Below are positions 8,534 through 27,043 of a stretch of DNA of 64,000 nucleotides, piece by piece (positions within the stretch are counted from its first letter, which is position 1; the number at the start of each line of letters is the position of its first letter). The stretch is taken from NCBI RefSeq assembly GCF_018459925.1, contig NZ_CP075371.1, positions 1-64,000 of the forward strand, given 5' to 3'. The translations under genes and the position numbers were made by a program. Under the pieces are notes generated by a model. It did no database searches, had not been told where the DNA came from, and saw only the letters and a list, made by a program, of their open reading frames with translations. This stretch comes from Nocardioides aquaticus. Lineage in GTDB: Bacteria; Actinomycetota; Actinomycetes; Propionibacteriales; Nocardioidaceae.

Positions 8534-11281
8534 GTGACCGAGACCCCCACCGGCGGCACCCCGACCGGATCCCGGATCGAGCCGGTCGAGCTGCAGACCT
8601 CCATGCAGCGCGCCTACATCGACTACGCCATGGCCGTCATCGTCGGCCGGGCCCTGCCCGACGTGCGCGACGGCCTGAAGCCCGTGCACCGCCGCGTGCT
8701 CTACGCCATGTACGACGGTGGCTACCGCCCCGACCGCGGCTTCTCCAAGTGCAGCCGCGTCGTCGGCGACGTGATGGGGCAGTACCACCCGCACGGCGAC
8801 ACCGCGATCTACGACACCCTGGTCCGCCTGGCGCAGCCCTGGGTGATGCGGGCGCCGCTGATCAACGGCCAGGGCAACTTCGGCTCGCCGGGCAACGACT
8901 CCGCCGCGGCGATGCGGTACACCGAGTGCCGGATGGCGCCGCTGGCCATGGAGATGGTGCGCGACATCGAGAAGGAGACCGTCGACTTCCAGCCCAACTA
9001 CGACGGTCGCTCGCAGGAGCCCGTCGTCCTGCCGGCGCGGTTCCCGAACCTGCTGACCAACGGCTCCGCCGGCATCGCGGTCGGGATGGCCACCTCGATC
9101 CCGCCGCACAACCTGCGCGAGGTCGCCGAGGGCGCCCGCTGGGCGCTCGAGCACCCCGACGCCACCAAGCAGGAGCTGCAGGACGCGCTGATCGAGCGGA
9201 TCAAGGGCCCCGACTTCCCCAACGGCGCCACCATCGTGGGCCGCCAGGGCATCGAGCAGGCCTACCGCACCGGGCGCGGCTCGATCACGCAGCGGGCGAT
9301 CATCGACGTCGACGAGGACGCCAAGGGCCGTACCATGCTCGTGATCACCGAGCTGCCCTACATGGTCAACCCCGACAACCTCGCCCTGAAGATCGCCGAG
9401 CTGGCCGACTCCGGCCGGGTGCAGGGCATCGCCGACGTACGCGACGACACCTCCGACCGCACCGGTCAGCGCCTGGTGATCATCCTGCGCCGTGACGCCG
9501 TGGCCCGCGTGGTGCTCAACAACCTGCTCAAGCACACCGAGCTGCAGAGCAACTTCAGCGCCAACATGCTGGCCCTGGTCGACGGGGTGCCGCGCACCCT
9601 GTCGATCGACGCGTTCATCAGCAACTGGGTCGAGCACCAGATCGAGGTCATCCGGCGCCGCACCGAGTACCTCCTGCGCGAGGCCGAGAACCGGGCCCAC
9701 ATCCTGCGCGGCCTGGTCAAGGCCCTCGACATGCTCGACGAGGTGATCGCGCTGATCCGGCGCTCGCCCGAGGTCGAGGACGCGCGCGACGGCCTGATGT
9801 CGCTGCTCGAGATCGACGAGATCCAGGCCCGCGCGATCCTGGAGCTGCAGCTGCGCCGGCTCGCGGCGCTGGAGCGGCAGAAGATCATCGACGAGCTGGC
9901 CGAGATCGAGCGGACCATCGCCGACCTCGAGGACATCCTGGCCAACGTCACCCGCCAGCGCCAGATCGTGGCCGACGAGCTGGCCGAGGTCGTCGAGAAG
10001 TACGGCGACGACCGGCGTACCCAGATCGTGGCCGCCGAGGGCGACCTGTCGATGGAGGACCTGATCCCCGACGACGAGCTCGTCGTCTCCATCACCCGCG
10101 GCGGCTACGCCAAGCGCACCTCCCGCGCGCTGTACCGCACCCAGAAGCGCGGCGGCAAGGGCGTGCGGGGCGCGGCTCTGCGCGGCGACGACGTCGTCGA
10201 GCACCTGATGGCCACCACCAACCACCACTGGCTGCTGTTCTTCACCACGGCCGGACGCGTGTACCGCACCAAGGCCTACACGCTGCCCGAGGCCTCCCGG
10301 GACGCCAAGGGCGGGCACGTCGCCGGCCTGCTGTCGTTCCAGCCCGACGAGTCGATCGCGCAGGTCCTGGCGATCCGCGACTACGACCAGCTGCCGTACC
10401 TCGTGCTCGCGACCCGGCACGGCCTGGTCAAGAAGACCCGCCTGGCCGACTACAACAGCCCGCGCCAGGCCGGCATCATCGCGATCAACTTCCGCGAGGA
10501 GCACCCGACGCTGGGCCAGGACGAGCTGATCGGCGCCGAGCTGGTCAGCGCCGACGACGAGATCCTGCTGGTCTCGCGCCGCGGCCAGGCGATCCGCTTC
10601 CGCGCAGACGACGCCCAGCTGCGTCCGATGGGACGCGCCACCTCGGGCGTCTCCGGGATGAAGTTCCGCGAGGAGGACTCGCTGCTGTCCATGTCGGTCA
10701 TCCGCGCCGCCCAGGTCGCGGCCGAGGAGGCCGCGGGCCTCGCCGAGGGCACGGAGGACTCGCCGGACGTGGAGGCGTCGCCCGAGGAGGTCGCGGAGGT
10801 CAAGCCGCAGTACGTCTTCACGATCACCGACGGCGGGTTCGCCAAGCGCACCCGGATCAGCGAGTACCGCACCCAGTCGCGCGGCGGCCTGGGGATCAAG
10901 GCGATGGCCCTGGCCAACGAGGACCGCGGCGGCCTCGTCGGCGCGTTCATCGTCGAGGACGGCGACGAGGTGCTCTCGATCACCGCCACCGGCCAGGTCG
11001 TGCGCAGCCCCGTCAACGACGACTTCCGCGCCACCGGCCGCTCCACCATGGGGGTCCGGTTCGTGACCACCAAGTCCGGCGACAGCGTCGCCGTCGTGGC
11101 CCGCTCCGTCGAGGCCAAGGTCGAGGCCACGGTGGAGGGCGAGGTCGAGGGCGAGGGCGAGGTGGCCGGCGAGTCGTCCGATTCGCCCGCGGCTGACATG
11201 ATCGAGACGACCGGGGCGGCCGACGACGCCGCAGAGGTCGCCGGCGACCAGGGCGGCGACGACGCCGGGGAGGACACCTGA
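8534..11281 (+). CDS. gyrA: DNA gyrase subunit A
   Basis: Breakage-reunion subunit of gyrase. The catalytic tyrosine is Tyr129 in AAMRYTECR; the quinolone-determining region reads [10 protein letters not shown] with Thr90, Ala91 and Asp94. C-terminal beta-pinwheel repeats follow, including a GyrA-box-like QKRGGKG. A Glu/Asp-rich tail of about 55 residues ends the protein (915 aa, longer than the usual 830-860 because of an acidic insertion near residue 735-755 and this tail). GTG start after AGAGAGAG. One base separates it from the DUF3566 gene. Confidence 0.97.
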
Positions 11282-12393: not shown

Positions 12394-12466
12394 GGGGCCT
12401 TGGCGCAATTGGTAGCGCACCTGCTTTGCAAGCAGGGGGTTAGGGGTTCGAGTCCCCTAGGCTCCA
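12394..12466 (+). tRNA. tRNA-Ala (anticodon TGC), island insertion site
   Basis: 73-nt cloverleaf: acceptor GGGGCCT pairs with AGGCTCC (one G-U pair), anticodon loop TTTGCAA with anticodon TGC, and T-arm AGGGGTTCGAGTCCCCT. The 3' 45 bases belong to the 48-bp att repeat, so the island integrated in the anticodon-to-T-arm half and restored an intact tRNA. CCA is not encoded. Confidence 0.97.
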
Positions 12467-12469
12467 CCG
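12422..12469. repeat. attL, 48-bp direct repeat
   Basis: Begins TGCTTTGCAAGCAGG and ends CTAGGCTCCACCG; identical in all 48 positions to 26996-27043. It covers the tRNA-Ala anticodon arm to its 3' end plus three bases. Such a duplication is the product of tyrosine-recombinase integration. Confidence 0.95.
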
Positions 12470-12471
12470 AG

Positions 12472-12499
12472 AGAAACCGCAGGTCAGCCTGCGGTTTCT
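12472..12499 (+). terminator. Terminator just inside the island left end
   Basis: Perfect 12-bp stem AGAAACCGCAGG / CCTGCGGTTTCT with loop TCAG, followed by TTACC. It lies 3 bp beyond attL, so tRNA-Ala transcription now ends in island DNA. Nothing similar follows attR. Confidence 0.75.
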
Positions 12500-12603
12500 T
12501 ACCATTTCCGGGCTAACCCCCTGCTGATTCTCTGCTCGCTATGGGGGACTGGCGGGGGAATGGGCCTAGCTGATGCAGGGGTTCCCGAATCTGCCTGACG
12601 GCC

Positions 12604-14727
12604 ATGAGCCAAGATGACGTCATGCCGATCCCGGACGACGTGTGGAACGACCTCATCGAGATGCAGCCGGGAGAGATGAAGAACAGAGGTCCGCTCGCGT
12701 CCAGGTGGCGCGACGAGGCGGTCGAGCAGCTCCTTACGTCTGGACACCTCGTTGCGGACGGTGGCCGCGTTACGCGCACGAAGGTGTCACTAGACGCGGA
12801 GGCCCTTTGGGAGGTTCTGCCGGAGGACGGGTCCACGATGGGCAACCAGAGGGCCCGCACCGAACTCGGGTGGAGGGACGAACGTCGGTACGAGAATGCC
12901 AAGGCCATCTTGCTCGCCACGAGCGAGATTGCTGTGGGCCGCGGGCGGGGAGGCTCGATCAAGCGGATCACGGACCCCAGCGGCTCGCTCGAGCAGGTGC
13001 CGAACTCGCCCGCACCTACATCCCGGGCAGCGGTGCCGCCGGAGGTTGAGAGCCGTGCTGACGTGCAGGCCCCCGTCGACGAAGAACGTCGGGTGACGAG
13101 GGCGCCCGCGAGCACAGAAACGGAACGGGCGGAGCTGCACAAGACCATCTGGCGGATCGCTAACAATCTTCGCGGCAGTGTCGACGGATGGGACTTCAAG
13201 ACATATGTCCTCGGGATGCTCTTCTACCGTTTCATCTCCGAGAACCTGACGGTCTACCTCAACGAGCAGGAGCGGCTGGCAGGTAACGAAGGCTTCGACT
13301 ACCGCAACCTGGCACGTGCTGACGCGGAGGTTGGCCGTGACGAGACGGTCAAGGAGAAGGGCTTCTACATCCTCCCGGAGGATCTGTTCGCTAATGTCCG
13401 CGCCAAGGCCAGGCACGACGAGAACCTCAACGAGACCCTGAGCCGTGTCTTCAAGAACATCGAGGGCTCGGCCGTCGGCGCGACCTCCGAGGATGACATC
13501 AAGGGTCTCTTCGACGACCTCGACGTCAACAGCAGCAAGCTCGGCCCCACGGTGGCCAAGCGCAACGAGAAGCTCGTCAAGCTCCTCGACGCCATCGGCG
13601 ACCTCCCGCTCGGTGGTGCCTTCAGGGAGAACAATAACGACCTGTTCGGCGACGCCTACGAGTACCTCATGCAGATGTACGCGTCCGCGGCCGGCAAGTC
13701 CGGTGGTGAGTACTACACGCCTCAGGAGGTTGCGGAGCTCCTGGCCAGGATCACCGTCGTCGGCAAGACCGAGGTCAATAAGGTCTACGACCCGGCCTGC
13801 GGCTCGGGCTCGATGCTGCTGAAGTACGAGAAGGTCCTCGGACACGGCAAGGTGCGGCAAGGCTACTTCGGCCAGGAGGTCAACCTGACCACCTACAACC
13901 TGTGCCGGATCAACATGTTCCTGCACGACATCCCGTACGAGAAGTTCGAGATCGCACACGGCGACACCCTGATCGATCCGGCCCATTGGGACGACGAGCC
14001 GTTCGAGGCGATCGTGTCCAACCCGCCCTACTCGATCAAATGGGAGGGCGACGCGAACCCGCTACTTATCAACGACCCGCGATACGCACCAGCCGGAGTC
14101 CTCGCGCCCAAGTCCAGGGCGGACCTCGCGTTCACCATGCACATCCTGAGCTGGCTTGCCGTCAACGGTACTGCTGCAATTGTCGAGTTCCCCGGAGTGC
14201 TATATCGCGGAGGAGCTGAGCAGAAGATCCGCAAATGGCTCGTAGACAACAACTACGTCGACACCGTCATCCAGCTCCCGCCGGACCTCTTCTTCGGCAC
14301 GACGATTGCGACCTGCGTTCTCGTGCTCAAGAAGTCCAAGCCTGACAACACGATCCTCTTCATCGACGCCTCGGCGGAGTTCACACGCCAGGGCAACAAG
14401 AACAGACTCACTGCCGACCACCAGGAGTCGATCCTCGAGGCCTTCAGCAAGCGGGACGACGTCCCCTACTTCGCCAAGCTCGTCGATCATGAGGTCATTG
14501 CCGACAACGGCTACAACATCGCGGTCAGTTCGTACGTCGAAGCCGAGGACACTAGCGTCGCGGTCGACATCCGTACTCTGAACGCTGAGATCGCCCGCAT
14601 CGTCGTGAGCCAGTCGACGCTCCGCGCGAAAATCGACGCAATCGTTGCTGACTTGGGGGAGAGTCGTGAGCGAGGACGAGGAGGCGGCGCGCGACTCTCT
14701 GACCACAGCCGTGGAGAGTTCGGTTGA
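12604..14727 (+). CDS. hsdM: Type I restriction-modification DNA methyltransferase HsdM with N-terminal extension
   Basis: Adenine-N6 methyltransferase subunit of a type I system. HsdM_N helical domain begins near residue 175 (ELHKTIWRIANNLRGSVDG); SAM-binding motif PACGSGSML starts at Pro397; catalytic motif NPPYS is at 473-477. The first 170 residues are extra compared with ordinary HsdM (about 500-540 aa) and resemble a winged-helix-like region (SRWRDEAVEQLL, a beta-wing region, then YENAKAILLATSEIAVG) plus a linker. ATG 12604 has no strong ribosome-binding site; ATG 12622 is an alternative. Its last 62 bases overlap the next gene in another frame, and the tail after about residue 680 looks unlike a normal HsdM end. 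Confidence 0.93.
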   Translation: MSQDDVMPIPDDVWNDLIEMQPGEMKNRGPLASRWRDEAVEQLLTSGHLVADGGRVTRTKVSLDAEALWEVLPEDGSTMGNQRARTELGWRDERRYENAKAILLATSEIAVGRGRGGSIKRITDPSGSLEQVPNSPAPTSRAAVPPEVESRADVQAPVDEERRVTRAPASTETERAELHKTIWRIANNLRGSVDGWDFKTYVLGMLFYRFISENLTVYLNEQERLAGNEGFDYRNLARADAEVGRDETVKEKGFYILPEDLFANVRAKARHDENLNETLSRVFKNIEGSAVGATSEDDIKGLFDDLDVNSSKLGPTVAKRNEKLVKLLDAIGDLPLGGAFRENNNDLFGDAYEYLMQMYASAAGKSGGEYYTPQEVAELLARITVVGKTEVNKVYDPACGSGSMLLKYEKVLGHGKVRQGYFGQEVNLTTYNLCRINMFLHDIPYEKFEIAHGDTLIDPAHWDDEPFEAIVSNPPYSIKWEGDANPLLINDPRYAPAGVLAPKSRADLAFTMHILSWLAVNGTAAIVEFPGVLYRGGAEQKIRKWLVDNNYVDTVIQLPPDLFFGTTIATCVLVLKKSKPDNTILFIDASAEFTRQGNKNRLTADHQESILEAFSKRDDVPYFAKLVDHEVIADNGYNIAVSSYVEAEDTSVAVDIRTLNAEIARIVVSQSTLRAKIDAIVADLGESRERGRGGGARLSDHSRGEFG

Positions 14728-15319
14728 GCGGTTCCTCGATGGGCACCTTTCGCCAGAAGAGGAGCGGCACGCCCGGAACATCGGGCGCATGTGCTTGGAG
14801 TTCGCGTGCCTCGAGGAAGAAATCGGCGAGCTCGTGGTGTCTCGAGGCGGCGGATCCCCAGATCGGGAGGCCTACATGGAGAGGGTCAAGACCGGTAAAG
14901 GCGTCCTCTCGGCCATTGCCGAGGTGGCCACAGGTGACCTGAGCGACCTCAAGGAGCGTTACAACGCTTTCAAGGCAGAGCGTGATCGCTACGCTCATGC
15001 GTCCCTGGGGGCGGTCCTCCAGGAGGAGCAGACGGAGGATGGCCGGAGGATCCTCCACCTCAAGACAGATCTGCAAAAGCATCCGAGAGGCGATCGCCAC
15101 CCGAGCGGTCGGGTGTCGTCGCTGCCAACTGACGAGGATACGGACGCGCTCATCCGCGACATGCGTTCGCTTCGGATGAGGCTAATGAACGAACGGATGC
15201 GCGCCACGGTCGAACGGGCCACAAAGAACATTGCCACGCAGATGCACGAGATGGTTAGCCGCAGTCTCCCGCCCATGCGTGAGCGCATGACCGACATGGT
15301 TCGGCGGATCGTCCCGTGA
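14666..15319 (+). CDS. HEPN-like helical protein embedded in the hsd operon
   Basis: 217-aa, all-helical-looking protein of no named family that I recognise. The segment LEEEIGELVVSRGG (about residues 38-51) and then ERYNAFKAERDRYAHASLG (99-117) contain an R-x4-H motif, Arg106 to His111, the catalytic signature of HEPN ribonucleases; the sequence around it (RDRYAHA) is HEPN-like. A C-terminal charged helix rich in Met and Arg follows. GTG 14666 is chosen (GGGGGAGAG upstream); TTG 14645 is in frame. It overlaps hsdM by 62 bp and hsdS by 4 bp (GTGA), so it is translated as part of the operon. A role as an RNase coupled to restriction is inference. Confidence 0.8.
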   Translation: MSEDEEAARDSLTTAVESSVERFLDGHLSPEEERHARNIGRMCLEFACLEEEIGELVVSRGGGSPDREAYMERVKTGKGVLSAIAEVATGDLSDLKERYNAFKAERDRYAHASLGAVLQEEQTEDGRRILHLKTDLQKHPRGDRHPSGRVSSLPTDEDTDALIRDMRSLRMRLMNERMRATVERATKNIATQMHEMVSRSLPPMRERMTDMVRRIVP

Positions 15320-16566
15320 GCCGTATCGTCGACCTTATCGCTGAGCACTGCCCGGAAGGTGTCGAGTTCAAGGCGCTCGGCGAGGTTGGCGAGTTCATTA
15401 GAGGCAACGGCCTTCAGAAGAAGGACTTCGTCGCCGCGGGCTTCCCGTGTATCCACTACGGGCAGGTGTTCACAACCTATGGGACGGCCACGAGTACAAC
15501 GAAAAGCTTCGTGACCCCTGAGTTGGCGATGCGCCTACGACGAGCCAAACCGGGCGATCTCGTCATCGCTACTACCAGCGAGAACGACGCGGACGTCTGC
15601 AAGGCCGTTGCGTGGCTCGGGGACACAGAAGTGGCAATCAGTGGCGACTCCTATATCTACTCGCACAGCCTGGACCCCCTCTATGCCGCCTTCTTCCTCC
15701 AAACGAGTGACTTCCGATCTCAGAAGATGCGATTCATCACGGGAACGAAGCTCAAGAGGGTCTCCAGTAGGCACCTTGCACGGATCAAGATCCCCGTGCC
15801 GCCCTTGGTGATCCAGCGCGAGATCGGCAAAGCCCTCCAAGAATTCGGAAGGCTGAGAGCCGAACTCGTTGTCGAGCTTGAAGCCGAACTTCGATACCGC
15901 TCTCGCCAGTTCTCGTATTACCGCGACTCCCTTCTCGCAGGGGGGGAGGCGGAGAGCGATCGTTGGGCAACAGTGGGCGAGTTGTATGAGTCGTCGTCCG
16001 GTCTTTCGAAAAGCGCGGATCAGTTCGGGTTCGGTCAACCGTTTCTGTCGTTCAGAACAGTGTTCAACAACCCCATCGTTCCCTCTGAACTTCGCAACCT
16101 CGTCAACTCGACAGAGTCGGAACAAGCCCGCTACTCGATCAACGCGGGCGACGTCTTCGTTACGCGAACGAGCGAAGATATTGAAGGTCTCGGCATGAGT
16201 TGCGCTGCGCTCAGGGGTTACCCCAAGGCTACTTTCAACGGCTTCACTAAACGACTCCGTCCCAGAGAGCCCGATGTCATTGATGCGCAATTCGCCGCAT
16301 ACTTCTTCCGCTCTTCACTCTTCAGAAGACAGATCGCCCGTATGGCTGTCCTGTCCACGCGGGTCAGTCTGAACGACGACATCCTGCTGAGGATCCGTAT
16401 CCCCGTTCCCCCGGTGGAAGAACAGCAGCGGATCGTCGCGATCCTCAACAAATTCGATGCGCTCGTGAGCGACTTGTCACGAGCGCTGCCAGCTGAGGTG
16501 GCCGCTCGCCGACAGCAGTATGAGTACTACAGGGACAAGCTGCTCACGTTCGAGGAAGCAGCGTGA
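15316..16566 (+). CDS. hsdS: Type I restriction-modification specificity subunit HsdS
   Basis: Sequence-recognition subunit of the HsdM/HsdR complex. Two target-recognition domains are visible: residues about 1-165 ending in IPVPPLVIQREIGKAL with the coiled-coil conserved region to about 215, and about 218-380 ending in IPVPPVEEQQRIVAIL with the second conserved helix ending YYRDKLLTF. 416 aa is the normal full length, so the subunit looks intact. GTG start overlaps the upstream stop by 4 bases; its own stop overlaps hsdR by 4. The two half-site specificities cannot be read from sequence. Confidence 0.93.
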   Translation: MSRIVDLIAEHCPEGVEFKALGEVGEFIRGNGLQKKDFVAAGFPCIHYGQVFTTYGTATSTTKSFVTPELAMRLRRAKPGDLVIATTSENDADVCKAVAWLGDTEVAISGDSYIYSHSLDPLYAAFFLQTSDFRSQKMRFITGTKLKRVSSRHLARIKIPVPPLVIQREIGKALQEFGRLRAELVVELEAELRYRSRQFSYYRDSLLAGGEAESDRWATVGELYESSSGLSKSADQFGFGQPFLSFRTVFNNPIVPSELRNLVNSTESEQARYSINAGDVFVTRTSEDIEGLGMSCAALRGYPKATFNGFTKRLRPREPDVIDAQFAAYFFRSSLFRRQIARMAVLSTRVSLNDDILLRIRIPVPPVEEQQRIVAILNKFDALVSDLSRALPAEVAARRQQYEYYRDKLLTFEEAA

Positions 16567-19500
16567 CCGAGTTCCCCGAGCTCGGCGTTGCGGGCAGTGC
16601 CACCCACTTCGAGCCGATCTCGGTCAGTGACGAGAGCACGGTCGTCGCAGAGTTCCCGCCCGAGGATTCGAAGGAGAGCGGCTACCAGAGCGAGGCCGAA
16701 CTGGAAGCTGCGTTCGTCAAGCTGCTCCAGGGGCAGGCCTACGAGTACCTACCGATCGTCAACGCTTCCGCGCTGGAGACCAACCTTCGCGCCCAACTCG
16801 AAACGCTGAATAAGTTCGAGTTCACCGACCCTGAGTGGCAGCGGTTCTTCAACGAGTCCGTCGCGGGCAAGAACGACGGGATCGTCGAGAAGACGGCCCG
16901 CATCCAGGAAGACCACATCCAGGTCCTCAAGCGCGACGACGGCACGGCCAAGAACATCTACCTGATCGACAAGACGAGCATCCACAACAACCGGCTCCAG
17001 GTCATCAATCAGTACGAGGTCGAGGGCCGAGCATCAGGTGTTCAGCGCTCGAACCGCTACGACGTCACCGTCCTCGTCAACGGGCTGCCGATGGTGCACA
17101 TCGAGCTCAAGCGCCGCGGGGTCGACATCCGGGAGGCCTTCAACCAGATCAACCGCTACCAGCGGGAGAGCTTCTGGGCCGACTCCGGCCTGTTCCAGTA
17201 CGTCCAGCTCTTTGTCATCAGCAATGGCACCCTGACGAAGTACTACTCCAACACCACCCGCGAGCGACACGTCAGCGAGACGGTCGGTAGCAAGCGCGGC
17301 AGGAAGCAGTCGTCCAACACGTTCGAGTTCACGAGCTGGTGGGCCGACGCGAGCAACCGGGCGATCGCCGACCTGACCGGGTTCACCAAGACGTTCTTCG
17401 CCAAACACACCCTGCTCAACATCCTGACGAAGTACTGCGTGTTCGATGTCGACCGCAACCTGCTGGTGATGCGTCCGTATCAGATCGTCGCGGCCGAGCG
17501 GATCCTTCAACGCATCGAGACCTCCACCAACTACAAGAAGCTCGGCACCATCGGAGCCGGCGGCTACGTGTGGCACACCACCGGGTCCGGGAAGACGCTC
17601 ACCAGCTTCAAGGCCGCCCAGCTGGCGAGCAAGCTGACCAGCGTCGACAAGGTACTTTTCGTCGTCGACCGCAAGGACCTCGACTACCAAACCCAGCGCG
17701 AGTACGACCGCTTCGAGAAGGGCGCGGTCGACGGCACCACCAACACCGCGCACCTCAAGCGAAGGCTCGAGGATCCGACGTCGCGGATCATCGTCACGAC
17801 GATCCAGAAGCTCGCCAGGTTCGTGAGCTATGAGCGAGGACACGACGTGTTCGGCTCGCATGTAGTGGTGATCTTTGATGAGTGCCATCGCAGCCAGTTC
17901 GGCGACATGCACATGGCCATCACGAACGTCTTCCGCCGCTACAACCTGTTCGGCTTCACGGGCACGCCGATCTTTGCCGAGAACGCTGGGGCAAGCGGGA
18001 ACCCGCAGTTACGCACCACCGAGCAGGCATTTGGCGACAAGCTCCATACGTACACGATCGTCGATGCGATCAGTGACAAGAACGTACTGCCGTTCCGCAT
18101 CGACTACGTCAACACACTGAAGCTCCCGGCGGCCCTGACCGACAAGCAGGTTGCCGCGATCAACACCGACGCAGCTCTGCTGAGTCCGGAGCGGGTCGGA
18201 GCGGTGACGTCGTACGTCCTCGACCACTTCGATCAGAAGACCCGCCGCAACTCGGCCTACCGGCTGGGGGAGAAGCGCGTCGCCGGGTTCAACTCGGTGT
18301 TCGCGACCGCGTCCATCGACGCAGCGAAGCGCTACTACAAGGCGTTCAAGGAAGCGCAGCGCGAGCGGGAGGAGACGGTCCCGGGATACCAGCCCCTCAA
18401 GGTCGGACTGATCTTCAGCTACGCCGCCAACGAGGACCTCGACGGCGGCATGCTGGGGGAAGAGGAGTTCGAGACCAGCGACCTCGATTCCAGCTCCCGC
18501 GACTTCCTCGAAGGCGCGATCCAGGACTACAACGTCATGTTTGGCACGAGCTTCGACACGTCGGCCGACCGGTTCCAGAACTATTACAAGGACCTGTCGC
18601 AGCGTCTCAAGAACCGTGAACTCGACCTCGCGATCGTCGTCAACATGTTCCTCACTGGCTTCGACGCCACGACCCTGAACACCCTGTGGGTCGACAAGAA
18701 CCTCCGCCAGCACGGCCTGATCCAGGCCTACTCGCGGACCAACCGGATACTCAACTCGATCAAGACCTACGGCAACATCGTCAGTTTCCGCGACTTGGAG
18801 CAGGCCACCAACGACGCGCTGTCGCTCTTCGGCAACAAGGACGCCAAGGGCATCGTCCTGCTCAAGCCCTACGCCGACTATTACGCCGAATACTCCAGGC
18901 TCGTCGCCGACCTCACGACCTTGTTCCCGCTCGGCCAGCCGATCGTCGGCGAGGCTGCGCAGAAGGCGTTCATCACGCTCTTCGGCGCCATCCTCCGGCT
19001 ACGCAACATCCTGGTCTCCTTCGACGACTTCGTCGGCCACGAGATCCTCAGCGAACGCGACTTCCAGGACTACCGAAGCATTTACCTCAACCTGTACGCC
19101 GACTTCCGCGGCCAGGACGCGGTCGAGAAGGAGTCGATCAACGACGACGTGGTCTTCGAGATCGAGCTCATCAAGCAGGTCGAGGTCAACGTCGACTACA
19201 TCCTGCTGCTGGTCGAGCAGTGGCGTGAAGCCCGAGGCAACGGCTCCGACGTCGAGATGGCCGCGCTGATGAACATCCAGCGCGCCATCGACTCCAGCAT
19301 CACCCTGCGCAACAAGCGCGACCTCATTCTTGCCTTCGTCGACTCCGTCAACGTCAGCGCGGACACTGGCGAAGACTGGCGCCGCTTCGTTGATGCCAAG
19401 ATGGCTGAGGAGCTCGAAGGGCTGATTGTCGCGGAGGCGCTCAAGCCTGATGAGACCCGCGCGTTTGTCGCCGACGCCTTTCGCGACGGCGCCATCCCCA

Positions 19501-19634
19501 CCGCCGGAACTGCTGTTACCAAGATCCTGCCGCCCGTCTCCAGGTTCGCGGCCGGGAACGACCACGCACTCAAAAAACAGACCGTTCTCGACAAGCTCGC
19601 CGCCTTCTTCGACCGGTATGCAGGACTCTCGTGA
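16563..19634 (+). CDS. hsdR: Type I restriction endonuclease subunit HsdR
   Basis: Motor and nuclease subunit. The N-terminal PD-(D/E)xK nuclease shows Asp167 and Glu181-x-Lys183 (HIELKRRG); helicase motif I HTTGSGKT ends at Thr345; motif II is DECH at 439-442; motif III FGFTGTP follows; motif VI is QAYSRTNRI. The C-terminal helical domain is complete. 1023 aa, family length, no break seen. GTG start overlaps hsdS stop by 4 bases. With hsdM, the HEPN gene and hsdS it forms one operon. Confidence 0.95.
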   Translation: MTEFPELGVAGSATHFEPISVSDESTVVAEFPPEDSKESGYQSEAELEAAFVKLLQGQAYEYLPIVNASALETNLRAQLETLNKFEFTDPEWQRFFNESVAGKNDGIVEKTARIQEDHIQVLKRDDGTAKNIYLIDKTSIHNNRLQVINQYEVEGRASGVQRSNRYDVTVLVNGLPMVHIELKRRGVDIREAFNQINRYQRESFWADSGLFQYVQLFVISNGTLTKYYSNTTRERHVSETVGSKRGRKQSSNTFEFTSWWADASNRAIADLTGFTKTFFAKHTLLNILTKYCVFDVDRNLLVMRPYQIVAAERILQRIETSTNYKKLGTIGAGGYVWHTTGSGKTLTSFKAAQLASKLTSVDKVLFVVDRKDLDYQTQREYDRFEKGAVDGTTNTAHLKRRLEDPTSRIIVTTIQKLARFVSYERGHDVFGSHVVVIFDECHRSQFGDMHMAITNVFRRYNLFGFTGTPIFAENAGASGNPQLRTTEQAFGDKLHTYTIVDAISDKNVLPFRIDYVNTLKLPAALTDKQVAAINTDAALLSPERVGAVTSYVLDHFDQKTRRNSAYRLGEKRVAGFNSVFATASIDAAKRYYKAFKEAQREREETVPGYQPLKVGLIFSYAANEDLDGGMLGEEEFETSDLDSSSRDFLEGAIQDYNVMFGTSFDTSADRFQNYYKDLSQRLKNRELDLAIVVNMFLTGFDATTLNTLWVDKNLRQHGLIQAYSRTNRILNSIKTYGNIVSFRDLEQATNDALSLFGNKDAKGIVLLKPYADYYAEYSRLVADLTTLFPLGQPIVGEAAQKAFITLFGAILRLRNILVSFDDFVGHEILSERDFQDYRSIYLNLYADFRGQDAVEKESINDDVVFEIELIKQVEVNVDYILLLVEQWREARGNGSDVEMAALMNIQRAIDSSITLRNKRDLILAFVDSVNVSADTGEDWRRFVDAKMAEELEGLIVAEALKPDETRAFVADAFRDGAIPTAGTAVTKILPPVSRFAAGNDHALKKQTVLDKLAAFFDRYAGLS

Positions 19635-19991
19635 CCCGGGCCGGCGTGCCGTGAGCATCGCTGCGTGCGAAAAGGTCTGACGGCGACTCGCACCTCTAGA
19701 AACGTGTCTGTCCTACCCGGGAGTGCAGAACTACCGCCCAGTCAACGTCGAGCCCCTCGCCCATCCGCCCGATGACTTGAAGCGCAGTTGCTCCGGCCAA
19801 CCACCCGCTGCCCTTGACGAACTTTGACGAGGACCGACGAGTCACGAAACCGTTGGACTCAGCAGCAGTTCGAAGCCTCCAGACCGAGCGGCACGCATGC
19901 TACGAAGGTCCGTAGATCGGTCCGCCCATGGGGCGGGCCGTGAGTCATTTCAAGGCTAAGTGACGACGGCTGACGGGCGGTGACGAGGGCG
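19635..19991. other. Intergenic region before the relaxase, candidate oriT
   Basis: 357 bp with no convincing gene. It holds a hairpin at 19919-19939 (GGTCCGCCC / GGGCGGGCC, 3-nt loop, one G-U pair), then short repeats of TGACG (19961-19985). A region with hairpin and repeats directly upstream of a MobF relaxase is where an origin of transfer would be expected; no nic site can be named. Confidence 0.35.
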
Positions 19992-22696
19992 ATGCGTGGT
20001 GGGGTCAAGTTCTACCGCGGCTCCGCGTCCGCAGCGCGCTCGTACGTAGAGGCGGACCGCTCACGGGTCGACGACTACTACCTCGCGGAGGGCACGGGCG
20101 TTGCCGAGCGGTATGTGGCCAGGACATCTCCCGCCGAGGGGGGACGCGGTGTTTTCGCAGTTCAGGGCGGGGGACGCTAGACGGTGACGCGTACGAGCGG
20201 TGGGTCGCCGGGTACGACGTCGAGACTGAGAGGCCGAAGGGCCGGTTGCGCCAGGACGCTCGGGGGCTTCGGTTCGTAGAGGTCGTGGTCAACGGGCCGA
20301 AGACCTGGTCGCTGGCTGCGGCGCTTCATCCCGACGTCGCTGCGGCGTACGACGCGGCGATGGATCGCGCGGCCGGCGAGGTGATCGGGTGGGTGGCTGA
20401 ACATGCCACCACGCGGGTCGGGCCGCGGGGCCGGCAGGTGCAGGTGCCGGTAAAGAGGCTCGAGGCGGCCGTGGTCCGGCACTACACCTCCCGAGCCGGC
20501 GACCCGCACCGGCATCTCCACGTGCAGATCAACGCCCGCGTCTTCGCGCAGGGGACATGGCGAGGACTGCACTCGGTCGGTGTCGTCGACAGCATCGAGG
20601 CGCTCAACGGGATCGGTCACGCCGCGGTGATGTGCGACCCCGAGTTCCGAGCCGCGCTCGCGGCACGCGGCTACAGCCTCGACGCTAACGGCGAGATTCA
20701 GCAGCTCGCGCCGTACGCCGGCGGGTTCAGCCAGCGCGCGGCGCAGATCAACCGCCATGTCGACCGGTACGAGGCCGCTTGGCGTGCCGAGCACCCTAGC
20801 CAGGAGCCCGGGCCGCGACTGCGCCGCACCTGGGACCGCCGGGCGTGGGCCGACGCGCGACCCGACAAGGTCGTGCCCCGCAGCGGCGCCGACCTCGTCG
20901 CCGCGTGGAATGAGGAGCTGCGCGACCTCGGCTTCACCCCACCAACCAGCCCGGTGAACGACGCCGGCGTCCCGGTCGGCCGGCTCAACCGGGATGTGGC
21001 CGCCGACCTGGTGCTCACCCGGCTCGGCGCGAAGCGGTCGGCGTGGAACGCAGCCGACATACGCGGCGAGGTCGAACGACTGATCGCCTCCGTCGACGTG
21101 ATCGCCGAGCGACCGGTGCGGCACGAGCTAGTTGAGGACATCGCCGACCGCGCTTTGACGCGGTGTGTGCCGCTGCTGGACCGCGACGACGTCCCCGAGC
21201 ACGTCCGCAGCCTGACATCGCAACGGGTCCTGGGCGTCGAGGCCGACCTGGTCGACAGCTTGGCTGCACGCTCCGCCCGGTCGGTCACTAACGCGGTGCG
21301 GCTCCGCGGCATCGACCACCTCGACCCCGCGCAACGAGATGTGGTCGCGGCGCTCGCCGGCGACGCCGAGCTGCTCGTCATCGAGGGCGCCGCCGGCACC
21401 GGCAAGACCACCACCCTGGCGGCCGCCCGCGACGTGCTCGACGACGCAGACCGTCGACTCGTGGTCGTCACCCCCACGCTCAAGGCAGCCCAAGCAGCGC
21501 AGCAGCAGGTCGGCACCGACGCCTTCTCCGCCGCCTGGCTGATCCACCAACACGGCTACCGCTGGGACGAGGACGGCCACTGGTCACAGACCGACGCCGC
21601 GCCAGAGGCACGCGCACGGCTGCTGCCCGGCGACGTCCTCCTCGTCGACGAGGCCGGCATGCTCGACCAGGACACCGCCCGCGCGCTGCTCGCCATCGCC
21701 GACCAAGCCCACGCAGCCGTCGCGCTCCTCGGCGACCGACACCAGCTCCCGGCCGTCGGCCGCGGCGGCGTCCTAGACCTCGCCGCACGCTGGGCGCCAC
21801 CTGAGGCGCACCACGAGCTCGAGTCGGTCCACCGGTTCAGCGATCGTGCGTACGCCGAACTCAGCCTCCTCATGCGAACCGGTGAGCGGTCTGGTGAGGT
21901 CTTCGACGCCCTCCTCGAACGCGGCCAGGTCGTCATCCACGCCAGCGAGGTCGGACGCACCGCAGCTCTGGCCGCCATCGGCGCCCGCGCCGCCGACGGT
22001 GACCAGCTCGTCATCGCCGACACCCGCGACCAGGTCGCCGCGCTCAACGCAGCCATCCGCGACCGCCGCCACGAGGAGCGCGCACCATCCGGTGAGCAAG
22101 ATGGTGAGCGCGGTCGTGGAGATGTTGTTGGGCCGATCACGGCCCGGGGTGAGCGGATCGGTCTCGGCGACCGGGTCGCCACCCGACGCAACGACCGCGA
22201 CCTCGAAGTCGCCAACCGCGACACCTGGACCGTGGCCGGCATCGGCGACGACGGCAGCCTCCTGATCACCGGCCGCCACGGCCAACGGACCTTGCCCGCC
22301 GGCTACGTCCACGACCACGTCGAGCTCGCCTTCACCACCACCGCCTACGGAGCACAAGGCGATACCAGCGACTGCGCACACCTCGCACTCGGCGAGACCA
22401 CCGGCGCCGCCTCGGCCTACGTCGCCATGACCCGCGGCCGCCACCACAACATCGTCCATCTCGTCGCCGAGTCCCTCGACGAGGCCCGCAGCCAATGGGT
22501 CGACGTCTTCCACCGCGACCGCGCCGACCTCGGCCCCAGCCACGCTGTTCAGCGAGCCGCCGACGACATCGACCGGTACGGGCCGAACGCTCAGCCGACC
22601 AATGCTGGAACGCGGCCGGTGCCGAGCAGCGGCCCACGTCGCCCACCGCCATCGCTGCCGGCTCCTCCATCCAGCTCCCGCGGGATCGGCCGCTGA
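19992..22696 (+). pseudogene. MobF (TrwC/TraA-type) relaxase-helicase, frameshifted near the start
   Basis: Conjugative relaxase that would nick oriT and unwind DNA. The N-terminus (MRGGVKFYRG, then DDYYLAEGTG with candidate catalytic tyrosines) is in one frame up to TAG 20178-20180; the rest continues in the -1 frame from about 20171 (GTLDGDAYERWVAGYD, FVEVVVNGPKTWSLAA, metal-binding HRHLH). One extra G in the G5 run at 20169-20173 joins the frames perfectly. C-terminal superfamily I helicase: Walker A GAAGTGKT (21385-21408), LLVDEAGML, and the C-terminal TAYGAQG / VAMTRGR motifs. About 901 codons in all. Either broken, or an assembly error; programmed -1 shifting is less likely. Confidence 0.85.
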
Positions 22697-22825
22697 CCAC
22701 CTTCCTCGCGCCGAGTGATCGCCCGCAGCAGCCCGGAGGACCTAGGTGACCAGGAGAGGCCCGGGTCTCGACAACAGCGGCCATTAGGGGTGTCCGAACC
22801 GTTGGACCCGATGTCGCTTCTCCAA

Positions 22826-22856
22826 GAAGGAGCCGCCGAATCCGTCGGCGGCCATG
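22826..22856 (+). promoter_or_regulatory. Hairpin between Shine-Dalgarno and start codon
   Basis: AAGGAG at 22827-22832 is followed at once by a perfect 8-bp stem GCCGCCGA / TCGGCGGC (22832-22852, 5-nt loop) and then ATG 22854. Folding would bring a distant ribosome-binding site next to the start or occlude it, so it may tune expression of the HTH gene. Confidence 0.4.
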
Positions 22857-23111
22857 GCGAAAGGCGACGTGATGGTGACACCCATCGGCATCCCCGACGA
22901 CTGGGACGACAACAACCTGATCCTGTTCGAGGAGTTCTGCGACCTCATCCGCACACCGCAGCGAACCGTCCGTGACTGGCGTCGTCGTGGCGTCGGGCCG
23001 CGGTGGACCCGCTTCCAGGGCGTGGGCCGGCTCTACATCACCGTCGCCGAGGCCCGACGCTTCCTCGGTTCCGCCACCGCCCCACGAGCGGAGGTGCGTT
23101 CCGATGGCTGA
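22854..23111 (+). CDS. Small helix-turn-helix protein
   Basis: 85-aa protein with a winged-helix/MerR-like core, residues about 25-75: LFEEFCDLIRTPQRTVRDWR then GRLYITVAEARRFLG. Proteins of this kind in actinobacterial integrative elements act as excision or copy-control factors. Start uncertain: ATG 22854 (behind the hairpin) or ATG 22872, which has AAAGGCG close upstream. Its stop overlaps the ATG of the next HTH gene by 8 bases. Specific DNA targets are unknown. Confidence 0.75.
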   Translation: MAKGDVMVTPIGIPDDWDDNNLILFEEFCDLIRTPQRTVRDWRRRGVGPRWTRFQGVGRLYITVAEARRFLGSATAPRAEVRSDG

Positions 23112-23301
23112 GCGACGCCCCATCCCCGTCTACCTCAGCCTGGAGGAAGCGGCCGACGCCATGTCGGTCTCGGTCAAGACCATCCGGCGCTGGATCGCCG
23201 CCGGCACCCTTCCGGCGTACCGGTGCGGCAAACGTGCCATCCGGATCAAACTCGAAGACCTCGAGGCCGCGCCCCGACAGATCCCGTCCGCTCGTTGGTG
23301 A
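23104..23301 (+). CDS. Excisionase-family HTH protein
   Basis: 65-aa protein of the helix_turn_helix_17 / excisionase type: LSLEEAADAMSVSVKTIRRW (residues 11-30) is the HTH, followed by the wing TLPAYRCGKRAIRIKLEDLE. Xis-like proteins bend att DNA and direct the integrase to excision. ATG 23104 overlaps the preceding gene by 8 bases; the longer frame to 22972 is rejected because it is antisense-like and without homology. It is the best Xis candidate of the island, although int is 2.3 kb away on the other strand. Confidence 0.85.
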   Translation: MAERRPIPVYLSLEEAADAMSVSVKTIRRWIAAGTLPAYRCGKRAIRIKLEDLEAAPRQIPSARW

Positions 23302-23326
23302 GACCGTCTGGCAATCGCGCCAGTAG

Positions 23327-23749
23327 CTAAGCCGACCGTGCCGTGAAGCCCACCCCCGCGGTCATTAGGGGACGGAGTGCCTGGACCAGCGCGGCGAGCT
23401 CACCCGCGGCGAGGTCGGCAGGCACGCCAACCTCCACCAAGGTCTCGGCCCGAGCAAAGGCCACGCGGGCGGAGGTCTCGAAGTGGCCGAGTTGCTCCGG
23501 GCTGAGCGCGTTGGCCTCTGCCTTGCGACCGTAGGAGGCGACTTCATGTTGGGAGCGGCGCAGGTACTCCTCAAACGTGTCGACGTGAGCCTTCGCCCTC
23601 TTGTAGTCGCGGTCCGCTCCTCGACGGCAGGTGTCCGAGCAGTACTCCTTGCGACGACCGGGCCCAAGTTCCTGAACAACGGGCTTCTTGCACGAGAGCC
23701 GCCCGCAAGGGGGAGCGATCTGGCCAATGCTCTGGTCGTCCGTATCCAT
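23327..23749 (-). CDS. Putative zinc-binding protein of unknown function
   Basis: 140-aa protein on the - strand. Residues 15-45 carry Cys pairs spaced as in a zinc ribbon: CGRLSC followed by YCSDTCRRGADRDYKRAK. The rest is an amphipathic helical region (VDTFEEYLRRSQHEVASYG) and a Leu/Ala-rich tail. No family name is recognised; such short Cys-rich proteins are common accessory genes of actinobacterial elements. It is the only island gene besides int on the - strand. Confidence 0.65.
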   Translation of the reverse strand: MDTDDQSIGQIAPPCGRLSCKKPVVQELGPGRRKEYCSDTCRRGADRDYKRAKAHVDTFEEYLRRSQHEVASYGRKAEANALSPEQLGHFETSARVAFARAETLVEVGVPADLAAGELAALVQALRPLMTAGVGFTARSA

Positions 23750-24110
23750 GATGTCCGCCTATCCGCGCGCTAAGGGGGTCCTGTAAGCCCCACTGTGGCG
23801 GCAAGGGGTCACCACAAGCCGCAGAAACGCCGAACTACACGGGTGTTTATTCGCGCGATTCACCAGCGAAATTGCCCCAGCTTCGTCGGCGTGTTGCGGC
23901 CCGGCGGGTCGGCGTCGCTGCTGGACTGGCGTCGCCACCTGAACCCAGGCGGCGCAAAAACCGCGCGAATGCCAAAGCGCCCGGCTGGGAGGCCGGGCGC
24001 TGAGGTGCACGGGACATGAGCTGTCGTCGTACGGATGGAACCGCAATGACATCACCGGTCCCGAGCTCGCGCAAGACACGCACTGACGTGCGAGACGGGA
24101 GGGATCGCCA
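23750..24110. other. Intergenic region with strong hairpin
   Basis: 361 bp without a credible gene. It contains a perfect 10-bp stem AGCGCCCGGC / GCCGGGCGCT with a 6-nt loop at 23976-24001; on the - strand the stem is followed by TTTGG. It probably holds the promoters of the flanking divergent genes and perhaps a terminator. Confidence 0.4.
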
Positions 24111-24434
24111 ATGTGGCGGTTCGTCGTAGCAAACAATCAGGCCGGCAACCCGACGTGGTGGCTCTACGCCGGCAACAACGAGATGGTGGCGTGGGCGGGT
24201 GAGACGTTCGCGTCGACCTCCAACGCCAGCCGGGCCGCGTCGGCCTTCAAGCAGGGAGCGAGGACCGCGCGGTACGACGTCTACCAGGACATCGGCGGCT
24301 CCTGGCGTTGGCGGGCGTGGCGCTCGTCCGACAAGGTCGCGGCCTCCGGCGAGTCCTTCTCCAGCAAGTACGCCGCCGACCAGGCGGCGGTCAGGGTCCG
24401 TGATCAGGCGAGTGGTGCCTCGGGTCCGGCCTGA
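24111..24434 (+). CDS. DUF1508 (YegP-like) two-repeat protein
   Basis: 107-aa protein made of two copies of the DUF1508 fold: WWLYAGNNEMVAWAGETFAS (residues 15-34) and WRWRAWRSSDKVAASGESFS (64-83), each followed by an Ala-rich helix with a K/R motif (NASRAASAFKQGA and KYAADQAAVRVRD). DUF1508 proteins are small beta-rich proteins of unknown role. GGGAGGGAT before ATG 24111 is a good ribosome-binding site. No transmembrane segment. Confidence 0.8.
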   Translation: MWRFVVANNQAGNPTWWLYAGNNEMVAWAGETFASTSNASRAASAFKQGARTARYDVYQDIGGSWRWRAWRSSDKVAASGESFSSKYAADQAAVRVRDQASGASGPA

Positions 24435-24550
24435 CCGTTGACGGTGGCGACACCTGGCTCGGGACAGGTGCCGACCGGCCGCAGCGGGCAGCGCGCGCCC
24501 ACAGGCCCAACGCGATCAGTTCTTATGTGTCGCTGCTCCGTGTTAGCGTG

Positions 24551-24610
24551 ACATCACTACATCCCCCTCGCCTCTCGTAGAAGCGCACTAGGGGGATTTT
24601 TATTTTGGTT
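24551..24610 (+). ncRNA. Candidate small RNA or attenuator upstream of the Abi_2 gene
   Basis: ATCCCCCT (24561-24568) pairs perfectly with AGGGGGAT (24590-24597) around a 21-nt loop and is followed by TTTTTATTTT, a textbook intrinsic terminator and one of the few real U-tracts in the window. A -10-like TAGCGT lies at 24544-24549, so a transcript of only about 55 nt would start near 24556. The Abi_2 start is 18 nt after the U-tract. It may be an independent ncRNA or a leader that attenuates abi transcription. Confidence 0.5.
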
Positions 24611-24627
24611 GGGCTGGAGATCGTCCC

Positions 24628-25623
24628 ATGGTGAAGGCTTCGCGTGCCCGAGGCACTGGCACCTACGACAAGCCTCCGCTCACGCTCGAGGAGCTGGTCG
24701 AACGCCTGCAGGATCGGGGCCTTGCGATACCCGACCGAGATCGGGCCATTCGCTACCTCCGACACCTTGGCTACTACCGACTGTCGCCCTACACGATCCC
24801 GTTCCAGGTCGCCGGGACCGACCACCAGTTCCGACCGAACGTCGAATTCGACGACGTCCTCGACCTCTATGTCTTCGACCGCGCGCTGCGACTGCTCATC
24901 CTCGACGCCGTCGAGCGGGTCGAGGTGGCCGTCAGGAGCTCACTCACCGACCACATGTCTATTACCTATGACGACCCGCACTGGTATGTCGATCCCAGCC
25001 ACTTCGCGGATGGTCGCGACCACAGCGGCCTGCTCAGGAGCATCGGGAAGACGTGCGACGAACAACTTGGGCGGGCAGCAGAGCATCCCGGAGACAATCT
25101 TGTGTTCCGTTCGGCGCTCGAGCACTACCTCACCACTTACGGCGCGCCGGCACTGCCGCCGTCATGGCTGATGGTGGAGACGCTGACGATCGGTTCCCTG
25201 GAGCGAGTCGTGCGCAACCTCAAGCGAAGGTCGGACAAGACCGCAGTCGCCAAGACAGTTGGCATCAACGCTGTGCTGTTGGACTCCTGGCTGCGCACCT
25301 ACGTCCGCGTGCGCAACATCTGCGCTCACCATGGACGCATGTGGAACGTCGGCATCGGCGTATACCCGGCGCTCCCTACTTCCAGCGCCATCTCCTGGCT
25401 CGAAGACAAGACCGTGCTCGCCGGTCGCAGGGCGAAGCAGCTCTACCCCGTGCTCGTATCTCTCCAGTCCGTACTGGACACGATCTCCCCACGCAGCACG
25501 TGGGCGCGACGACTCAGCGACCTCATCGCCGAGCACCCGCACCTACCCCTCGGCGGCATCGGAATGCCCGAGGACTGGCGCGACGACCCATTTTGGGCCC
25601 GGCACATCCAGGACCACGGGTAG
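24628..25623 (+). CDS. Abi_2 (AbiD/AbiF-type) abortive-infection HEPN protein
   Basis: 331-aa defence protein of the Abi_2 family, which aborts infection by phage through RNA cleavage. The family landmarks are present: YDKPPLTLEELVERLQDRGL at the N-terminus, RYLRHLGYYRLSPYT, then DRALRLLILDAVERVEVAVR, PPSWLMVETLTIGSLERV and, near the C-terminus, VRNICAHHGRMWN. Arg229-x4-His234 is the HEPN catalytic motif. ATG 24628 has GGAG upstream. It lies between the RNA-like element and the integrase. Full length, no frameshift seen. It is the second HEPN-type protein of the island. Confidence 0.9.
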   Translation: MVKASRARGTGTYDKPPLTLEELVERLQDRGLAIPDRDRAIRYLRHLGYYRLSPYTIPFQVAGTDHQFRPNVEFDDVLDLYVFDRALRLLILDAVERVEVAVRSSLTDHMSITYDDPHWYVDPSHFADGRDHSGLLRSIGKTCDEQLGRAAEHPGDNLVFRSALEHYLTTYGAPALPPSWLMVETLTIGSLERVVRNLKRRSDKTAVAKTVGINAVLLDSWLRTYVRVRNICAHHGRMWNVGIGVYPALPTSSAISWLEDKTVLAGRRAKQLYPVLVSLQSVLDTISPRSTWARRLSDLIAEHPHLPLGGIGMPEDWRDDPFWARHIQDHG

Positions 25624-25638
25624 CGCCCAGACGCCGAG

Positions 25639-26814
25639 TCAGCGGCTGCGTGCGCTCTCCCAATCGCTGTAGGCCACGCCGATCTTCTCGGCGAGTGACC
25701 TGTCCCGGTCGAGGGTGGCGTGTTGGTAGATCGCCATCGCCGCTTGAGACGCGTGGCCCGCACGAGCCTGCAGTTCTGCAGCGGTCGCGCCGTGCTGCCC
25801 GGCCAGCGTCAACGCCGTGTGGCGGAGGTGGTGGAGCGTCAGGTCCGGGCGTCCGGCGGCTTCCCGAGCCGGACGGTAACGGTCCATTAGGTAGCGGACG
25901 CTCATGTGGTCAGTGCGGTCGCCGGGGAACAGTAGGCCGTTCGGCCCCTCGGCGCTGTACTGAAGCAGGTGCTGCTGGAGCATCTTCAGGAAGGGAGGCG
26001 GCACGTGGACGGTGCGCACGCCGCTCCTCGTCTTTGGGGTGCTGATCGGCCGGCCGCACTTGGGACAGGCGCCGCGGGCTGATGGGTTCGCATCCTTATC
26101 GACCTTGCGCGTGACGTCGATCCGGCCGGTGACGCCGTCGACGTCGGAGCGCCGGAGTTCGAGCAGCTCGCCTTCGCGGAGGCCGACGAACGCGGCCAGG
26201 ACGATGAGCAGCTTGAGCCGCTCAGGCATGGCGTCGATGATGACCGCGAGCTCGTCGAAGGTGGCCGGCACGGCTGCCCTCTTGACCCGCGCGCCGCTCG
26301 CCCCGCGGATCTTCGGCGGCGCTCGGTCGATCAGCTCCTCCTCCTCCGCCGCCTGCAGGAGGGAGCGCAGGAGCCGGTACGCGGCCGCGTTGGTTGACTC
26401 TGTTGATGCATTGAGGGACGCGCGCCAAGCCTTGATCTCCGAGAGTGTCACGTCACGGAGCGGCAGCTCGCCGAAGTAGGGAAGGAGCCGCGAGGCGAGC
26501 AGCGTCTCGTAGCCGCGAACGGTGTTGGGCCGCAGCCCGCGCTCGGCGAGGTAGCGCTTCGAAAACGCGCGGACCGTGTTGGCCGCAGCCGCCCGCTCGC
26601 GCAGTTCGGCGGCCGCTTTGCGCGCGGCCGGCGGCGTCCACTCGTCGCGGTCGATCAGCGCCCGCTCGGACGAAAGCCAGCCCTCTGCGTCCATCTTCGA
26701 GCCGAAGCTCCGCGAGTAGCGCGTGCCGTCGGGCATGGCGTACCTCGCCCGATAGGAGACATCGCTCCGGCTGGTGCGCCGTTCGACCTCGCCGAAACCT
26801 CGTCTTCGTGCCAT
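25639..26814 (-). CDS. int: Tyrosine recombinase / phage-type integrase
   Basis: 391-aa site-specific recombinase that would integrate the island at tRNA-Ala. N-terminal SAM-like core-binding domain (about residues 75-165) and catalytic domain with Arg213 (GLREGELLEL), HHLR 328-331, His354 and nucleophile Tyr363. An unusual CPKCGRPISTPKTRSG (Cys250/Cys253) lies in the catalytic domain, with Lys261 just after, a small zinc-ribbon-like insert. ATG 26814 is chosen because GGGAGG precedes it; the frame stays open 40 codons further but runs toward the att site without homology. The gene reads away from attR, 182 bp from it. Confidence 0.95.
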   Translation of the reverse strand: MARRRGFGEVERRTSRSDVSYRARYAMPDGTRYSRSFGSKMDAEGWLSSERALIDRDEWTPPAARKAAAELRERAAAANTVRAFSKRYLAERGLRPNTVRGYETLLASRLLPYFGELPLRDVTLSEIKAWRASLNASTESTNAAAYRLLRSLLQAAEEEELIDRAPPKIRGASGARVKRAAVPATFDELAVIIDAMPERLKLLIVLAAFVGLREGELLELRRSDVDGVTGRIDVTRKVDKDANPSARGACPKCGRPISTPKTRSGVRTVHVPPPFLKMLQQHLLQYSAEGPNGLLFPGDRTDHMSVRYLMDRYRPAREAAGRPDLTLHHLRHTALTLAGQHGATAAELQARAGHASQAAMAIYQHATLDRDRSLAEKIGVAYSDWESARSR

Positions 26815-26995
26815 CGCGAGACCTCCCGCCCCGTCTGTGGGATAGGTTCCCCGAGCCCACCCCGGGTGGATCCCCATGCTTAACCAGCAGGGCGTGGGGG
26901 GCCCGTGGGGGAAAGGATGGCACAGTCCGTCCATTGTAGGCCACCTCTGAACTGGAACTTTAGCCGCTGGCCACAGTTTGCGAGGTGACCCGACA

Positions 26996-27043
26996 TGCTT
27001 TGCAAGCAGGGGGTTAGGGGTTCGAGTCCCCTAGGCTCCACCG
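26996..27043. repeat. attR, 48-bp direct repeat
   Basis: Perfect copy of 12422-12469, containing the 3' half of tRNA-Ala (anticodon arm onward) without the 5' half. It marks the right end of the island. The 22-bp repeat array begins only 3 bp further. Confidence 0.95.

Follow-up and report, generated by a model that had tools for sequence, protein, structure and literature searches.

In the 64,000-nucleotide stretch of the Nocardioides aquaticus genome analysed here (contig NZ_CP075371.1, positions 1 to 64,000; hereafter the window), a type I restriction-modification (R-M) operon carries, at the junction of hsdM and hsdS, a small open reading frame (ORF) for a putative HEPN-type protein of 217 amino acids (aa). 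In one family of type I systems this junction is an exchangeable site, which is found empty or occupied by an Mrr nuclease gene, by Mrr plus a RhuM-like gene, by an unassigned gene or by the HEPN-type gene. The reading that we favour, with a probability of roughly 0.55, is that the HEPN-type gene is a self-contained RNase cargo, co-translated with the restriction genes and serving as a second line of defence. The HEPN-like nature of the product is partly supported, by the motif and its placement in the predicted models, and is left unproven by profile and fold searches. The operon is composed as follows.

12604..14727, + strand: hsdM, type I methylation subunit, 707 aa (PF02384 1.8e-110; PF12161 6.9e-20; TIGR00497 705 bits)
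14655..14662, + strand: Shine-Dalgarno-like run GGGGGAGA, 5' of the GTG start of the HEPN-type gene (sequence)
14666..15319, + strand: candidate HEPN-type gene, 217 aa (ORF; homologues; AlphaFold2 model, pLDDT 87.5)
14981..14998, + strand: codons of R106-D-R-Y-A-H111, the R-x4-H motif (alignment, 22 rows)
15316..16566, + strand: hsdS, specificity subunit, 416 aa (PF01420 3e-24)
16563..19634, + strand: hsdR, restriction subunit, 1023 aa, EcoR124-like (PF12008 4.1e-65; PF04313 1.4e-46; TIGR00348 558 bits)

Pfam identifies HsdM, HsdS and HsdR, and NCBIfam models are matched above their cut-off by HsdM and HsdR, and the three genes with their domains make up a type I operon. Its class is EcoR124-like, as judged from the C-terminus of HsdR (PF12008) and from HsdM (TIGR00497); EcoR124 is of type IC. 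Translation of 14666-15319 gives an open frame beginning with GTG, with RDRYAH at residues 106-111, and the coordinates bear out the overlaps described in the sequence-only reading from which this work started: the HEPN-type gene begins within the end of hsdM, sharing 62 bp into which the C-terminal tail of HsdM continues, and its stop overlaps the start of hsdS by 4 bp, the same length as the overlap between hsdS and hsdR. The overlaps of the HEPN-type gene with its two neighbours suggest that it is co-translated with them. A programmed frameshift at the G run, fusing HsdM to the HEPN-type ORF, was considered and found no supporting evidence.

Protein searches returned 6, 14 and 10 entries, the first set lying within the second and both containing the window protein; besides it, 23 database proteins or fragments were collected, to which two further genome copies (G279 and G1261) are added. 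Two clades are recognised, clade 1 with 11 database rows (177-249 aa, 37-88% identical to the window protein) and clade 2 with 10 rows (138-169 aa, 21-28% identical to it in the alignment), which are linked by hhalign over 133 columns with a probability of 98.3% and an E-value of 1.7e-14. These rows and the window protein form a 22-row alignment, from which a duplicate of the window protein (P0002), a 194-aa protein with a divergent C-terminus in which the motif is present (P0014) and a 101-aa fragment stopping short of the motif (P0015) were omitted. The homologues were expected by the sequence-only reading to share R-x4-H, and they do: R106, A110 and H111 are invariant in 22/22 sequences, down to 21% identity to the window protein, while position 107 holds D in 12 rows and N in the other 10, which gives R-[DN]-x-x-A-H throughout. 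The published HEPN motif, R-x4-6-H in which the arginine is followed by a polar residue (N, D or H) (PMC3710099), is thus found in every row, and the copies of G279 and G1261, outside the alignment, retain it as well. Of the 146 columns occupied in 20 or more of the 22 rows, 15 are invariant (R34, H35, N38, G40, R41, A47, E50, F102, R106, A110, H111, G148, P154, M166 and R170). Moreover, the clade-2 genes of Kribbella shirazensis and G279 differ by a dN of 0.20 and a dS of 1.39 (dN/dS ~0.14), indicating purifying selection.

For the fold, we took as the HEPN type an up-down arrangement of four helices, the third of which ends with the motif. Two confident AlphaFold2 models, one per clade (pLDDT of 87.5 for the window protein), predict a helical bundle with the motif at a helix end, and an MntA-HpeT entry is present among the structural neighbours. 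The models also predict a long C-terminal helix in clade 1 (residues 156-215, 60 residues), compared with 27 residues for the last helix of clade 2. A PDB profile search (A4, E<=10) brought up the BAR protein 3caz (E 0.0012) and a Cas12f, neither of which is a HEPN protein; both were read as helical similarity and set aside.

The gene family is rare. An accepted copy occurs in 3/293 genomes of the order (raw search count 6), in 1/396 of the phylum, in 1/394 of the class and in 2/215 of the genus, the window genome being included in each of these samples, and in 1/38 genomes of the genus of G040 and 1/149 of another family; the samples overlap, and the first pass of the search can miss copies. 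The order-level search pointed to seven places in six genomes, where the window gene and the clade-2 copies of G279 and G040 were accepted; the four other matches (G208, G189, G269 and a second one in G279) cover only residues 123-209 within open frames of 637-1724 aa and are likely to reflect helical or coiled-coil similarity. The only match in the genome contigs (L008) was also rejected, as it covers just 34 residues and reads a transporter-like ORF in another frame. No match was obtained in plasmid searches with the window protein and the homologue P0018, in a phage search with P0018 or in two scans of viral contigs.

The gene context could be read for four homologue loci, namely those of the window, K. 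shirazensis, G279 and G1261, and in two of them it is the hsd junction. In K. shirazensis, a clade-2 homologue of 157 aa, with R82 and H87 as its R and H, stands between hsdM and hsdS with an 8-bp overlap with each gene, in a system only distantly related to that of the window (identities of 33% for HsdM, 23% for HsdR and 25% for the homologue). Another Kribbella genome (G031), whose HsdM and HsdR are 86% and 89% identical to those of K. shirazensis, lacks the HEPN-type gene; a different hsdS (36% over 178 aa) follows its hsdM directly. The remaining contexts are of another kind. G279, from the genus of the window, has a clade-2 copy upstream of genes for GajA (1.5e-220) and GajB (7.9e-212), and a Methylase_S (PF01420) search of its single-contig genome detected no specificity subunit, although divergent ones can be missed; the same search was positive in the window genome, in 9/14 controls and, weakly, in the Kribbella genome (best 2.8e-6). 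G1261 has a clade-1 copy, 35% identical to the window protein, which begins 24 bp past an HmaC-like gene (1.7e-264), with GmrSD/HEC-05-like and HEC-07-like genes upstream and an integrase downstream. The association with hsd genes that the sequence-only reading had anticipated thus holds for half of the readable loci, the other two being next to Gabija genes and to an HmaC-like gene, respectively. A link to restriction exists, but it is less strict than first proposed. At the Gabija locus of G279, a 393-aa protein encoded upstream of the HEPN-type gene (L010:9729-10910) has RGRLIH in its C-terminal half and no Pfam (E<=0.01) or PADLOC match.

To define the junction in related systems, HsdM was searched in two genome sets, both including the window genome, with hits in 20/117 genomes at E<=1e-50 and 8/296 at E<=1e-120. 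Fifteen close relatives have an HsdM identity of 69-84%, the 69% line having been drawn after the results and relatives at 35-40% being uncounted; G019 and G023 were left out of the 15, no hsdS or hsdR having been found next to their partial hsdM. Fourteen close systems, the window included, are therefore readable. The junction is empty in eight, hsdM directly overlapping hsdS (G086, G056, G113, G071, G763, G782, G854 and G792), and six carry cargo: an Mrr-type nuclease gene in four (G068, G110, G900 and G548), an unassigned gene in one (G777) and the HEPN-type gene in the window, with 0/13 in the readable relatives. In G068, hsdM, mrr, a short RhuM-like gene and hsdS are linked by 4-bp overlaps (L042:2453-3786). 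The cargo of G777 is a cysteine-rich ORF of up to 314 aa (L062:2003-2947), which looks DUF4145-like by eye, has no Pfam or PADLOC match and was not counted as HEPN. Two loci are damaged but readable, hsdM of G110 being split by ~13 kb and a deletion in G900 having fused the beginning of hsdS with the final part of hsdR. The pattern is that of an embedded gene, that is, a fixed site in a defence operon which is empty or otherwise filled in relatives.

HsdM of the window ends ~20 aa beyond that of the 10 relatives compared, which would fit the loss of its original stop codon during formation of the junction. At its other end (12604-13125), ~175 aa precede the HsdM_N domain and appear by eye to be a winged-helix region plus a linker; the HsdM of Kribbella, at 504 aa, has no such extension. 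Elsewhere in the genome of the window (contig C1, 1652500-1660500), another type I-like locus contains two tandem HsdM-like stretches.

The operon lies within a 14.57-kb integrative island (12419-27043) in a tRNA-Ala gene, with the following further features.

12394..12468, + strand: tRNA-Ala, island integration site (ARAGORN)
12419..12469, + strand: left copy of a 51-bp direct repeat, att-like, 3' part of tRNA-Ala
20246-22696: TrwC-type relaxase ORF (PF08751 4.2e-44)
22854-23111: HTH-like ORF (below Pfam's cut-off)
24628..25623, + strand: Abi_2/AbiD gene, a second HEPN-type candidate beside the integrase, with RVRNICAHH (PF07751 7.5e-49; AbiD 2.9e-61)
25639..26934, - strand: tyrosine integrase (PF00589 1.9e-15)
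26993..27043, + strand: right copy of the 51-bp direct repeat (98%)

With a GC content of 0.58-0.63, the hsd genes and the HEPN-type gene stand below the neighbouring ORF 8534-11281 (0.71), which we take to be gyrA.

Building on the observed operon anatomy, motif invariance, predicted helical bundle, exchangeable junction and other contexts, the mechanism that we propose is that of an accessory defence gene seated in the hsdM-hsdS junction of an EcoR124-like operon on an island. Its product would be a small HEPN-type RNase with a putative active site at R106 and H111, together with D107 and possibly E50, which would be translated along with HsdM and HsdS and then remain latent. When a phage gets past restriction, the enzyme would cut RNA and translation would stop in the infected cell. 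Latency and trigger would be intrinsic to the HEPN-type protein rather than supplied by HsdM and HsdS, and homologues could adjoin other defence systems because the protein would bring both with it. A bolder version, which we consider doubtful, is that of a portable effector that would plug into unrelated hosts (type I R-M systems of two divergent kinds, the HmaC-like locus and the surroundings of Gabija) and sense when the system around it fails, one effector thus backing several first-line defences.

Several findings limit the case for an RNase of the HEPN type. A single R-x4-H is weak evidence because 61% of 20,000 composition-preserving shuffles contain one (10% for R-[NDH]-x3-H), and a second one (RFLDGH, residue 22) is present in the window protein, within a stretch missing from clade 2. 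Furthermore, none of the 22 members has a Pfam HEPN model among its matches at E<=5, such similarity being one way into the superfamily and not a trait that defines it. Foldseek returned nothing significant, and the resemblance to HEPN structures is only suggestive; in the comparison with HEPN folds, to which the sequence-only reading had looked, the predicted bundle and the position of the motif may fit such a fold. A frequent motif in a rare gene could suggest chance in a functionless reading frame, which is extremely improbable in view of the 23 homologous database proteins or fragments, the two further genome copies, the 15 columns invariant at identities as low as 21% and the dN/dS of the clade-2 pair; judged from the alignment, it is the invariance of the motif across the 22 sequences, not the motif alone, that constitutes real evidence. 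The lack of a HEPN profile match and the invariant polar residues beyond the motif (R34, H35, N38, R41 and E50) would also suit a catalytic protein that is not an RNase toxin, its site acting on DNA or on a small ligand such as a nucleotide, in restriction or signalling. This is unlikely, as the HEPN signature R-polar-x-x-x-H (PMC3710099) is among the few invariant elements and lies where it would be expected in the predicted bundle.

The sequence-only reading had taken PrrC as its precedent. In such a scheme, the HEPN-type protein would be bound and held inactive by HsdM/HsdS, possibly with HsdR, and freed when a phage inhibitor disables restriction; the EcoR124-like operon, matching the type IC host of PrrC, EcoprrI (PMC2610378, PMC3874165), the same position in two divergent systems (HsdM 33%, HsdR 23% identical) and the predicted clade-1 helix 156-215, which could dock, are consistent with it. 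We nevertheless regard it as rather unlikely, and restraint by the R-M complex is not supported: an obligatory role of Hsd is disfavoured because one copy occurs where no specificity subunit was detected (G279, with the limit given above) and another behind an HmaC-like gene (G1261, whose genome was not searched for hsd genes), and the gene is absent from 13/13 readable close relatives of the window HsdM, and clade 2 has a considerably shorter final helix. The overlaps suggestive of co-translation and the same long helix could also indicate a non-catalytic helical accessory subunit that tunes how the type I complex is assembled or expressed, a quite improbable role for a gene that is missing in related systems, is found away from hsd genes and encodes invariant R, H and D/N residues unexpected in a scaffold.

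The gene is placed within a known kind because both R-M-linked HEPN proteins and genes embedded in type I operons have been published. PrrC, encoded between hsdS and hsdR, has an N-terminal ABC-type ATPase domain, cleaves the anticodon loop of tRNA-Lys and is silenced by the R-M complex. The HEPN-type gene is likewise embedded in an hsd operon of the EcoR124 class, that is, type IC, but differs in standing between hsdM and hsdS, in having homologues away from hsd genes and in its product, which, in agreement with the sequence-only reading, is smaller (217 aa) and has no ATPase match; the HEPN-type motif, the operon class and the presumed second-line role are shared (PMC2610378, PMC3874165, PMC12707154, PMC3710099). 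HEPN proteins linked to R-M systems comprise at least 16 clades, among them AbiU2, AbiJ solos, DUF4145, Abi2 and Ymh fusions (PMC3710099), which resemble the present family in neighbourhood, whereas none of its 22 members matches a Pfam HEPN model; a search for AbiU2 (PF18734) was uninformative, with 0/58 genomes and none in the controls as well. TgvAB and RloF are defence genes inside hsd operons too, and TgvAB protects without HsdR restriction activity, but they provide GmrSD-type DNA restriction between hsdR and hsdS (PMC11411939), not a HEPN-type function between hsdM and hsdS. Genes embedded in defence systems have been described in a preprint (Payne et al., 2024, as cited in PMC11411939), and the G1261 homologue, with HEC-like genes in its locus, is comparable; no PADLOC model covers the HEPN-type gene. 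As for MntA-HepT, the HepT-like proteins compared have RN-x3-H and the system appears among the structural neighbours, but no nucleotidyltransferase gene is among the identified neighbours and the profile similarity is not significant (clade 2 aligns at the motif only, and 1/60 shuffles for clade 1 and 2/60 for the combined set reach the score). The claim that the system is undescribed stands in so far as the 217-aa protein matches no family in Pfam, NCBIfam or PADLOC, and titles and abstract openings of the open-licence literature yielded no paper describing a HEPN gene at the hsdM-hsdS junction; it does not stand for R-M-linked HEPN proteins as such (PMC3710099).

The proteins known to accompany restriction systems thereby gain an unclassified HEPN-type family, and the hsdM-hsdS junction emerges as an exchangeable site in one type I family. 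Natural operons with and without the gene would make it directly testable whether a restriction-linked RNase is silent only in the company of the restriction enzyme.
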